Below, one piece after another: positions 8,838 through 12,232 of a stretch of DNA of 64,000 nt. How positions within the stretch are numbered: the stretch's first letter is position 1; every line of letters starts with the position of its first letter. The notes below the pieces were generated by a model that saw only the letters and a program-made list of their open reading frames with translations, was not told the DNA's origin and ran no database searches. A program made the position numbers and the translations under genes. This DNA is from Deltaproteobacteria bacterium. Lineage in GTDB: Bacteria > Desulfobacterota > DSM-4660 > Desulfatiglandales > Desulfatiglandaceae. The DNA lies in NCBI GenBank assembly GCA_029933075.1, contig JAOZOW010000002.1:50039-114038 (forward strand). Direction: 5' to 3'.

Positions 8838-9698
8838 ATGGAGATCAAAACTATTGGTGTGGTGGGCGCCGGGACAATGGGAAACGGAATCGCCCAGGTC
8901 GCGGCACAGATAGGCTGTCAAGTGGTGATGCGGGACATTGAAGATGCCTTTGTCGAGCGAGGCATGAAAAGCATCGACAAATTCCTTTCAAGGAGTGTGG
9001 AGAAAGGCAAGCTCCAGGCGGATGAAAAGGAGGCAATCGTCGGTAGAATTACCGGTACTACGGACATGTCCCGGTTGAAAGATGTGGATTTCGTAATCGA
9101 GGCCGTTATTGAGGATCTGGAGCTCAAGAAAAGCGTGTTCAAGGAGCTGGATGAATTGTGTCGTCCGGAAGTGATCCTTGCCTCAAACACCTCTTCCATG
9201 TCACTGACTGAAATAGCCGCTGCAACAAATCGCCCTGACAAAGTAGTGGGCATGCATTTTTTCAATCCGGTCCCCCTGATGAGATTGGTTGAAGTGATTC
9301 GCGGCTTCTCCACCAGCGATGATACGGTCGCCGTTACCACGGAGCTGGCAAAAAAAATGGGCAAAATCACGGTTGAGGTCAAAAAAGACTCTCCCGGGTT
9401 TATTGTGAACCGGATCATGATTCCCCACATGATAGAGGCCATAAAGATCGTTGAGGAAGGGATCGCGAGCATTGAAGATGTGGACACGGCCGTCAAAAAC
9501 GGCCTCAATTATCCCATGGGTCCCTTTGAGTTAATGGATCTCACCGGGATCGATATCTGCTATTACGTGGCGGAGTATTTTTATAAAGAGCTTAACAAGG
9601 AATCCAAGTGGGTCTCTCCCAACCTCCTGAAAACCATGATTCGCGCCGGAAAGCTGGGGAGAAAGACCGGGGCAGGGTGGTACGATTACAGCAAGTAG
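8838..9698 (+). CDS. hbd: 3-hydroxybutyryl-CoA dehydrogenase
   Basis: A 286-residue NAD(P)-dependent 3-hydroxyacyl-CoA dehydrogenase. The Rossmann motif GAGTMGNGIAQ is at residue 9, the catalytic region reads GMHFFNPVPLM (His) with the preceding ASNTSSMS, the C-terminal helical domain contains PGFIVNRI, and NYPMGPFEL and GRKTGAGWYDY close the protein. Length and motifs match short-chain (butyryl-level) Hbd enzymes. The reaction is (S)-3-hydroxybutyryl-CoA plus NAD to acetoacetyl-CoA plus NADH. This step is missing from the acyl-CoA oxidation cluster at 39677-49566, so the two loci probably serve one pathway. The gene is followed 20 bases later by a strong terminator. Confidence 0.94.
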   Translation: MEIKTIGVVGAGTMGNGIAQVAAQIGCQVVMRDIEDAFVERGMKSIDKFLSRSVEKGKLQADEKEAIVGRITGTTDMSRLKDVDFVIEAVIEDLELKKSVFKELDELCRPEVILASNTSSMSLTEIAAATNRPDKVVGMHFFNPVPLMRLVEVIRGFSTSDDTVAVTTELAKKMGKITVEVKKDSPGFIVNRIMIPHMIEAIKIVEEGIASIEDVDTAVKNGLNYPMGPFELMDLTGIDICYYVAEYFYKELNKESKWVSPNLLKTMIRAGKLGRKTGAGWYDYSK

Positions 9699-9717
9699 TA
9701 ATAAGGTGACCAAAAAA

Positions 9718-9753
9718 GAAGTCAGCCCTCAGTTGGGGGCTGGCTTCTTTTTT
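9718..9753. terminator. Bidirectional intrinsic terminator
   Basis: The inverted repeat GAAGTCAGCCC / GGGCTGGCTTC has a short loop and only one G-T pair. It is flanked by six A before and six T after, so it ends transcription on both strands: hbd on plus, and the small bS22-like gene on minus. Confidence 0.92.
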
Positions 9754-9778
9754 GGCTCTTCAGAGCTTATGGAGGTTG

Positions 9779-9868
9779 CTACTTGTTCTTGTGTCTCATT
9801 CTCTTCCTCAGCTTCCGGTATTTATGTTTCCTGATCTTTTTCCGGCGTTTCTTCACAACACTGCTCAT
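9779..9868 (-). CDS. AURKAIP1/COX24-domain protein, bS22-like ribosomal protein (29 aa)
   Basis: A 29-residue, extremely basic protein: MSSVVKKRRKKIRKHKYRK, then a short Leu/Arg/Lys tail ending in a TAG at 9779-9781. It is below most gene-calling thresholds. Three things make it credible: a perfect AAGGAGG nine bases before the ATG, a candidate promoter with a perfect TTGACA at 9923-9928, and a strong terminator just downstream. The composition matches the AURKAIP1/COX24 family, whose members include the mitochondrial ribosomal protein mS38 and the mycobacterial small-subunit protein bS22. The expected role is as an rRNA-binding small-subunit protein near the decoding region. The assignment rests on pattern memory of the family, without alignment. 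Confidence 0.85.
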   Translation of the reverse strand: MSSVVKKRRKKIRKHKYRKLRKRMRHKNK

Positions 9869-9898
9869 TCAATTAAACCTCCTTGGAAATGCGCCAAT

Positions 9899-9928
9899 TT
9901 ACTACTACTTTCCGACCTTAAATGTCAA
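9899..9928 (-). promoter_or_regulatory. Candidate promoter of the bS22-like gene
   Basis: On the minus strand there is TTGACA (9923-9928), an 18-base spacer, then TAGTAA. The -35 box is perfect and the -10 box weak. It ends about 30 bases before the Shine-Dalgarno of the 29-codon gene, and the region is locally AT-rich. Confidence 0.45.
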
Positions 9929-9975
9929 CAAGTAATTTTTTGATAATTAAGTTGACATAATATATATTATCAGAC

Positions 9976-10863
9976 CTAATGGCTTCCGCCTGCCTCCGCC
10001 TCTTTCCGCTTCCCTTTGAATCTATAGAGCCTCTCATCCGCCTTTGCCACAAGTTCCTCGGGCTCCGTCATCCCGTTTACGAAGCTGGCAAACCCGGCGC
10101 TGGCGGTTATGCCGCACTCGTTTTCAATGGCCCTCTCGATGCGTTTCCCTATCCCTCGGCCTATCTCCATATCCGCATCAATAAGTATAATGGCGAACTC
10201 ATCTCCCCCGTACCTGTATCCGGAATCCACACCGTCACGTATGCTGGAAAGGATTATCTTTCCGATCTTCCTCAAGAGCTCATCCCCAGCAACGTGCCCG
10301 TGGGTATCATTGAATTCCTTGAAATTGTCGAGGTCCAGTAAAATGAGGGCGAGCGGATGATTCTGTCGCTCAGCGCGCCTCATCTCCTCCTTGAGGCGCG
10401 CATAGAACTGTCGCTGGTTATAGAGGCCGGTAAGGGCGTCAGTGATGGAGAGTCTACTCAGCTCCTCCTTGACGTTTCTTTCAATGATGGCCCTTTTCAG
10501 TTTGGCCTCAAGTTCTTCAATATTGAAAGGCTTGTTCACAAAGTCAGTGGCCCCGGCGTTTATGACATCGATATACCTGTATTTTTTGGTGTAACCTGTC
10601 ATGGCAATACTGCAAAGCTCCGGGTATTCGTTCTTGACCCGGGCGATCAATTCAAGCCCATCCATTTTCGGCATATTGATGTCGGTGAGAAGAAAGGTAT
10701 ACTTATCATTTTTGAGCAGCTCCAGGGCCTCCTCCGCGCTGCCTGCCCCCCGGGCCCTGAAGCCTAAGGTCTGGAGCATCCGGACCACGGGCTCCCTTAC
10801 ACTTTCCTCATCGTCCACCACAAGGACATTTTCATTGCTATACTGACAATCTTGGTTTGCCAT
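9976..10863 (-). CDS. Response regulator with GGDEF diguanylate cyclase output
   Basis: A 295-residue protein. Residues about 13-125 form a receiver domain: acidic pocket VDDEE, phospho-acceptor Asp in LLTDINMPKMDG, the switch Thr in AMTGYT and the invariant Lys in FVNKPF. Residues about 140-285 form a GGDEF domain with the intact active site YRYGGDEF and the DLDNFKEFND metal/GTP segment, so it should make cyclic di-GMP from GTP when phosphorylated. The usual inhibitory RxxD five residues before GGDEF is not present (DGVD occupies the place), so product inhibition may be absent. No histidine kinase is adjacent. It follows miaB by about 40 bases and may be read through from that operon. Confidence 0.93.
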   Translation of the reverse strand: MANQDCQYSNENVLVVDDEESVREPVVRMLQTLGFRARGAGSAEEALELLKNDKYTFLLTDINMPKMDGLELIARVKNEYPELCSIAMTGYTKKYRYIDVINAGATDFVNKPFNIEELEAKLKRAIIERNVKEELSRLSITDALTGLYNQRQFYARLKEEMRRAERQNHPLALILLDLDNFKEFNDTHGHVAGDELLRKIGKIILSSIRDGVDSGYRYGGDEFAIILIDADMEIGRGIGKRIERAIENECGITASAGFASFVNGMTEPEELVAKADERLYRFKGKRKEAEAGGSH

Positions 10864-10903: not shown

Positions 10904-12232
10904 CTATTCCGCCATAAGACACTCGCCCCGGAGGGAGTTCAACAGCCCATCTTTAATTTTTACTTTAATTAAACCACCTATAGGGTTATATTTGCAAGTA
11001 AAATTAACTATTTTATTTGTATCGGTCCGCCCCGTATACTGGGAACCCCGCCTGCTCACGCCCTCCACGAGGACCATAACCTTCTTGCCTTCCAGGTTCC
11101 GGTTTTTCTGCAAGGTGATGCTTCTCTGGATGGACTGGAGGGTGGCGAGACGCCTCGACTTTTCCTTCTCCTCCACCTTTGGCTGCATCTTTTCCGCTAA
11201 TGTACCCCGTCTGTCGGAATATTTGAAGGAGAAAAGTGCATCAAATTCGACCTTTTTGATCAAATCAAGGGTCATTTCAAAGTCGTATTCGGTTTCGCCC
11301 GGAAATCCTACCATTACATCGCTACTGATGGCAATATCCGGCCTTACCTCCCTTAAGCTCGAAATCAACTCCAGGTATCTCTCTCTGGTATATCCTCTCC
11401 TCATCCTTCTTAGGACCGAATTGGATCCCGCCTGGAAAGGCAAATGAATGTGAGGGCAGAGAGCTTCTATTTGGTCGAAGCAGGAAATGAGGTCTTTTGA
11501 GAGGTCTTTGGGATGGGAAGTGGTAAAACGCAATCTCCAGAGCTCCTTGATGCGTCCTACCTCACGCAGGAGCATAGGGAAATCCCATACTTCCCCTCCC
11601 TCTCCCTTCCACATATAGGAATTCACATTCTGTCCGAGGAGCGTGATGTCCCTGACGCCCTCCGAGACCAGCAATTCGGCTTCGGCAATGATTGAACGGG
11701 GTGGCTTGGAGACCTCCCTGCCCCTCACAAAAGGAACGATGCAATAACTGCAAAAATTGTCGCACCCTTCCATTATGGAGATATAACCGGTGAACCTTCC
11801 AGTGAAATAACCCCTGCATGGCTCAGGAATGGGTGGCGATTCATCGAGATTGATTGCAACGACTTTTTTACCCCTTTCCTCAATCTCGGCCAGGCAGTCA
11901 CGGACCCTGCCCACCTCGCGAGGCCCCATGACCAGGTCCAGTTCCGGGAATCTTTCAATGAGGCCCGAACCGCCTTGTTGTGCCACACACCCCACTAAGC
12001 CGAGGATGAGTCCCGGCTTCCTCTTTTTGATATCAATCATCCGCCCCAGAAGGCTCAGGGCCTTCTGCTCCGGCTTTGCCCTTACGCTACAGGTATTGAT
12101 CAAGATCAGATCCGCATCCCCGGGCTCTTTCACCGGCAAAAATCCATCGTTGATAAGGGATTGGGCCAGAAGATCGGAATCGTATTCATTCATCTGGCAT
12201 CCCATGGTGACTATATGAAATTTCTTGGCCAA
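10904..12232 (-). CDS. miaB: tRNA-2-methylthio-N6-dimethylallyladenosine synthase
   Basis: A 442-residue methylthiotransferase. The N-terminal UPF0004 domain starts FHIVTMGCQMNEYDSD and supplies three cysteines for the auxiliary cluster; the radical SAM motif is GCDNFCSYCIVP (C-x3-C-x2-C); the TRAM domain closes the protein. It adds a methylthio group to i6A37 in tRNAs that read UNN codons. The GCQMNEYDSD start and overall length match MiaB rather than RimO or MtaB. It is preceded by the DUF4911 gene (40 bases) and NAD kinase in a minus-strand run. The last 20 codons are AT-rich compared with the rest of the gene, but the reading frame and TRAM pattern are intact. Confidence 0.96.
   Translation of the reverse strand: MAKKFHIVTMGCQMNEYDSDLLAQSLINDGFLPVKEPGDADLILINTCSVRAKPEQKALSLLGRMIDIKKRKPGLILGLVGCVAQQGGSGLIERFPELDLVMGPREVGRVRDCLAEIEERGKKVVAINLDESPPIPEPCRGYFTGRFTGYISIMEGCDNFCSYCIVPFVRGREVSKPPRSIIAEAELLVSEGVRDITLLGQNVNSYMWKGEGGEVWDFPMLLREVGRIKELWRLRFTTSHPKDLSKDLISCFDQIEALCPHIHLPFQAGSNSVLRRMRRGYTRERYLELISSLREVRPDIAISSDVMVGFPGETEYDFEMTLDLIKKVEFDALFSFKYSDRRGTLAEKMQPKVEEKEKSRRLATLQSIQRSITLQKNRNLEGKKVMVLVEGVSRRGSQYTGRTDTNKIVNFTCKYNPIGGLIKVKIKDGLLNSLRGECLMAE

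Follow-up and report, generated by a model that had tools for sequence, protein, structure and literature searches.

The window, a 64,000-nucleotide stretch of DNA from an uncultured member of the Desulfobacterota, carries on its minus strand a genuine tiny gene whose preservation is far beyond chance. The open reading frame (9868→9779) runs from an ATG to a TAG codon and translates as MSSVVKKRRKKIRKHKYRKLRKRMRHKNK. With high confidence it can be assigned as a bS22 gene, the product of which is predicted to be a ribosomal protein of the 30S pocket. bS22 proteins had previously been reported from Actinobacteria, Bacteroidota, and Borrelia, and the gene described here adds a further member. What is new is its location: in this order, bS22 follows a 28-bp dif-like site that is conserved and usually present in a single copy, and this linkage is the only unexpected element at the locus. 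The coordinates of all features are collected in Table 1.

Table 1. Features of the bS22 locus, in window coordinates
Feature	Position	Strand	Remarks
3-Hydroxyacyl-CoA dehydrogenase	8838..9698	+	Convergent downstream neighbor; conserved synteny
Intrinsic terminator hairpin	9707..9756		Common to bS22 (−) and the convergent dehydrogenase gene (+)
bS22 gene	9779..9868	−	29 aa plus TAG stop; product MSSVVKKRRKKIRKHKYRKLRKRMRHKNK
Shine-Dalgarno sequence AAGGAGG	9878..9884	−	9 nt upstream of ATG
TTGACA, −35-like box	9923..9928	−	About 60 nt upstream of ATG
dif-like XerCD site, 28 bp	9950..9977	−	AGGTCTGATAA TATATA TTATGTCAACT
Response regulator with GGDEF domain	9976..10863	−	First upstream neighbor; conserved synteny
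MiaB-type radical-SAM tRNA methylthiotransferase	10904..12232	−	Second upstream neighbor; UPF0004, Radical_SAM, TRAM

A preliminary description of this DNA had given the interval 9779–9868 without naming a strand. The coordinates hold for the minus-strand frame; the plus-strand reading of the same interval is noise and contains no gene. The perfect AAGGAGG ahead of the start codon was found again (9884→9878), as were the 29 codons, of which lysine and arginine account for 17, where about half had been noted. The product resembles bS22 of Mycobacterium, Cutibacterium, Flavobacterium, and Borrelia (NF047430; PDB 5o61, 8crx) in its size (about 29–33 amino acids in the family), in consisting of more than half basic residues, and in being encoded by one copy, with a single match in its own genome (G000).

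Clear homologues (E ≤ 2 × 10−5), one copy each, were found in 49 of 61 genomes, comprising 60 relatives and the window's own, and they share 76%–100% identity with the window protein across all 29 residues. A match in G024 and a second match in G005 (E of about 0.9, within long frames) were spurious and were dropped. In the 30 oriented loci, every gene begins with ATG, all but one encode 29 amino acids (the exception has 30), and a strong Shine-Dalgarno sequence (GGAGG, AGGAG, or AAGGAG) precedes 29 of the genes. Over the 29 codons, a pair of loci differs on average by about 13.1 synonymous and 3.2 nonsynonymous changes; the third codon position differs at 14.4 of 29 sites, compared with 3.5 for the first and 2.3 for the second. 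Relative to the window gene, dN is 0.03–0.12, and dS is undefined, as expected at saturation. The gene is thus conserved, under purifying selection, and equipped with its own translation signals. It is this retention of frame, length, start codon, and Shine-Dalgarno sequence across dozens of species, together with mostly synonymous change, that places the open reading frame far beyond chance. Loss of the frame or the Shine-Dalgarno sequence in related genomes had been named beforehand as evidence that would count against the gene, and both are kept. No bS22 match was obtained in G009, G012, G022, G031, G044, G051, and G052, and only the spurious one in G024, which reflects either true absence or an assembly gap. 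In G013, G023, G026, and G039, the orthologous GGDEF gene and dif are present and the contig stops 4–144 bp past dif; these four apparent absences are due to contigs too short to take in the expected complete bS22 gene.

The preliminary description had proposed a bS22/mS38-like ribosomal protein and an HMM search with PF08213 as the check, the lack of a match being held against it. Residues 1–27 align to positions 1–27 of the 33 in the Pfam profile (COX24_C) with 33 bits, where the gathering score is 23 bits, so that the product is a member of the AURKAIP1/COX24 domain family, and matches in the PDB to both bS22 and mS38 further support the proposal. These are to a DUF1713-annotated chain (9j1m; E = 4.5 × 10−4), plant mitoribosomal mS38 (6xyw chain BB; E = 0.0024; 17 of 25 aligned residues identical), Cutibacterium acnes bS22 (E = 0.016; 16 of 27), and mycobacterial bS22 (E = 0.08; 15 of 29), the E values being modest and the query 29 residues of low complexity. 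The sole NCBIfam match, nearly full length, is to the bS22 equivalog NF047430, with a score of 28.9 bits that lies below the cutoff of 34 bits. A close relative scores 33.7 bits and homologues from other groups 33.7–56 bits. The cutoff narrowly shuts out the window protein, the close relative, and a Manganitrophus sequence (28.9–33.7 bits). It looks tight for the clade of the window bS22, which could plausibly explain how such genes might escape naming.

These alignments show that nearly all of the product is homologous to bS22 and to the C-terminal domain of mitochondrial mS38. It has the N-terminal M-G/S-S-V-x-K-K-R-R-K motif in common with actinobacterial bS22 but differs from the known proteins in its C-terminal tail, RMRHKNK, and its gene differs in adjoining miaB, a GGDEF gene, and dif. 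Identity over the aligned stretch is 52% with mycobacterial and 59% with C. acnes bS22; plant mS38 exceeds both with 68% over the C-terminal 25 residues. With mS38 (AURKAIP1/COX24, PF08213) it shares the C-terminal basic stretch, SVKKKRKKKMNKHKYRKLRK in plants. mS38 is longer, imported, and carries an N-terminal extension, whereas the bacterial protein corresponds to the C-terminal domain alone. According to published structures, eL41/aL41 of eukaryotic and archaeal ribosomes occupies an equivalent small-subunit pocket (PMC10618245, PMC10085706), although with a shorter, unbent helix (PMC10618245), and the likeness is possibly convergent (PMC6582356).

Two other explanations of the open reading frame were considered. 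It is very short and adjoins functional DNA elements (dif, promoter, and terminator), and might be taken for a Lys/Arg-rich frame arising by chance in a regulatory intergenic region. The codon comparison refutes this in practice, as the frame, start codon, Shine-Dalgarno sequence, stop position, and amino acids are kept while third positions are free; the match to a curated protein family argues in the same direction, and a chance frame can be regarded as next to impossible. Alternatively, a genuine PF08213 member might act mainly off the ribosome, as a cationic antimicrobial or a general RNA/DNA-binding peptide. The very basic composition of the window peptide is compatible with such activity, and synthetic C. 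acnes bS22 suppresses both bacterial growth and translation in cell-free systems (PMC10085706), but the growth effect of an added cationic helical peptide counts as nonspecific evidence. Genes for export or immunity are missing from the neighborhood, which encodes MiaB, a GGDEF regulator, and a dehydrogenase, and all 29 residues belong to the mature domain, leaving no signal peptide. The strong purifying selection acting on the motif and the single copy in each genome suit a structural ribosomal protein, and a role mainly off the ribosome is very unlikely.

As a ribosomal protein, the product can be compared with bS22 in known structures. In C. acnes and Borrelia, bS22 forms a basic helix deep in the pocket of 16S h27/h44/h45, near the decoding center, and touches 23S H67 or H68 in an added intersubunit contact (PMC10085706, PMC10618245). 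It has been seen in ribosomes of Cutibacterium acnes, Flavobacterium johnsoniae, and Borrelia burgdorferi (PMC10085706, PMC10618245), so that bS22 is not restricted to mycobacteria, which qualifies the earlier statement that few such proteins have been seen in ribosome structures outside them. The gene in Borrelia was unannotated, the protein being found from its density alone (PMC10618245). In yeast, mS38 stabilizes h44; without it, mitoribosome assembly is disturbed, as is initiation on some mRNAs (PMC6582356). The window protein is a typical bS22, and by analogy with these structures a seat in the h27/h44/h45 pocket is expected for it. The peptide would form a bent Arg/Lys-rich helix buried in this 30S pocket, may stiffen h44 near the decoding center, and could reach H67/H68 of 23S rRNA as an extra intersubunit bridge. 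bS21 is present in the window's genome; it is likewise present in Borrelia (PMC10618245) and missing in Mycobacterium smegmatis (PMC6133939).

Candidate transcription signals had also been proposed for the gene. The perfect TTGACA (9928→9923) is present, and the −10 sequence in the window genome, TAGTAA, is poor; a consensus promoter scan made no call for bS22 at the locus. In 54 of 58 loci, TTGACN occurs in the interval from dif to the ATG, mostly 57–67 nt upstream of the latter, which makes it probable that bS22 is transcribed from its own TTGACA promoter. The proposed promoter is plausible, though weak in this genome. A consensus "promoter" on the plus strand (9940–9968) overlaps the dif-like palindrome, is directed away from bS22, and was rejected. 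Transcription would start at the TTGACA promoter, possibly supplemented by read-through from miaB-GGDEF, and would end at the bidirectional terminator. The latter is borne out by folding: the stretch 9758→9705 has a predicted energy of −29.4 kcal/mol, compared with −11.8 ± 2.6 for shuffled sequences (z = −6.7), and a downstream hairpin recurs in almost all bS22 homologues. An Rfam search of the locus gave no RNA element above gathering scores; a subthreshold Thr_leader match on the palindromic dif region (31.9 bits versus 55) is due to chance.

Most related loci keep the order NadK, MiaB, GGDEF, dif, and bS22, followed by the convergent dehydrogenase and a NifU-like protein. The dif-like site (9977→9950; AGGTCTGATAATATATATTATGTCAACT) lies between the GGDEF stop codon, which its upstream end overlaps by 2 nt, and bS22. 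It closely resembles the published dif sites of B. subtilis (ACTTCCTAGAATATATATTATGTAAACT; PMC3025954) and Geobacter (ACGTCCCATAAGATATATTATGTAAAGT; PMC2731167), and has two 11-bp arms flanking 6 central bp. Of the 61 genomes, 46 contain the 22-bp core once and 2 contain it twice, and a reversed control of the 22-mer pattern matched none of them. In 29 of the 30 oriented loci, 77–208 bp separate the end of the site from the bS22 ATG. In G032, assembled as a single contig, GC skew samples stay positive as far as 3.84 Mb and are negative from 3.92 Mb onward. The site falls between these points, at 3.8927 Mb, and the skew switches the other way near 1.4 Mb; this places the dif-like site of the genome at the replication terminus. 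Its 28-bp length, arm structure, low copy number, and coincidence with a skew switch are those of a dif/XerCD site, with recombination putative. Because the site is single copy in nearly all carriers and lies at the skew switch in G032, the window probably spans the replication terminus. In the 119-kb contig that contains the window, GC skew is too noisy to locate the terminus on its own: the cumulative maximum falls at 27 kb and not at dif, which lies at 60 kb. As a separate observation, contigs G013:C261, G023:C55, G026:C110, and G039:C277 break 4–144 bp after dif, perhaps by chance, perhaps because elements integrated at dif disrupted the assembly.

The simplest account of the linkage between dif and bS22 is that it is probably an old inherited neighborhood kept at the terminus. 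A functional connection, by which the dosage or expression of bS22 is tied to replication termination, XerCD/FtsK activity, or slow-growth states, seems unlikely; it would build on a gene for a ribosomal protein being replicated last, with its promoter between dif and the start codon.

Across the window's phylum, PF08213 was found in 87 of 297 sampled genomes. The family is present in 38 of 61 genomes from the phylum of Candidatus Manganitrophus and in 15 of 58 from that of a Myxococcales MAG; among 14 control genomes, it was found in Corynebacterium glutamicum only. A degenerate DNA pattern for the H-K-Y subtype matched 114 stretches in a species-level genome collection, with labels that include Desulfobacterales/Deltaproteobacteria, Acidimicrobiia, Nitrospirae, Sumerlaeota (BRC1), Chloroflexi, and Myxococcales, a few of which may stem from mis-binning. 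The same pattern had zero matches in 2.9 million viral contigs, so nothing points to carriage of this subtype by phages.

These results widen the known range of bS22, so far represented by ribosome structures from a few lineages, to much of the Desulfobacterota. The family is common yet patchy elsewhere, as in the phyla of Candidatus Manganitrophus and Myxococcales, which indicates that an E. coli-like inventory of 30S proteins is incomplete for many bacteria. The closeness to plant mS38 means that a bacterial origin of this mitochondrial ribosomal protein can be put to the test, and the dif-like site provides a marker of the replication terminus for these uncultured genomes.
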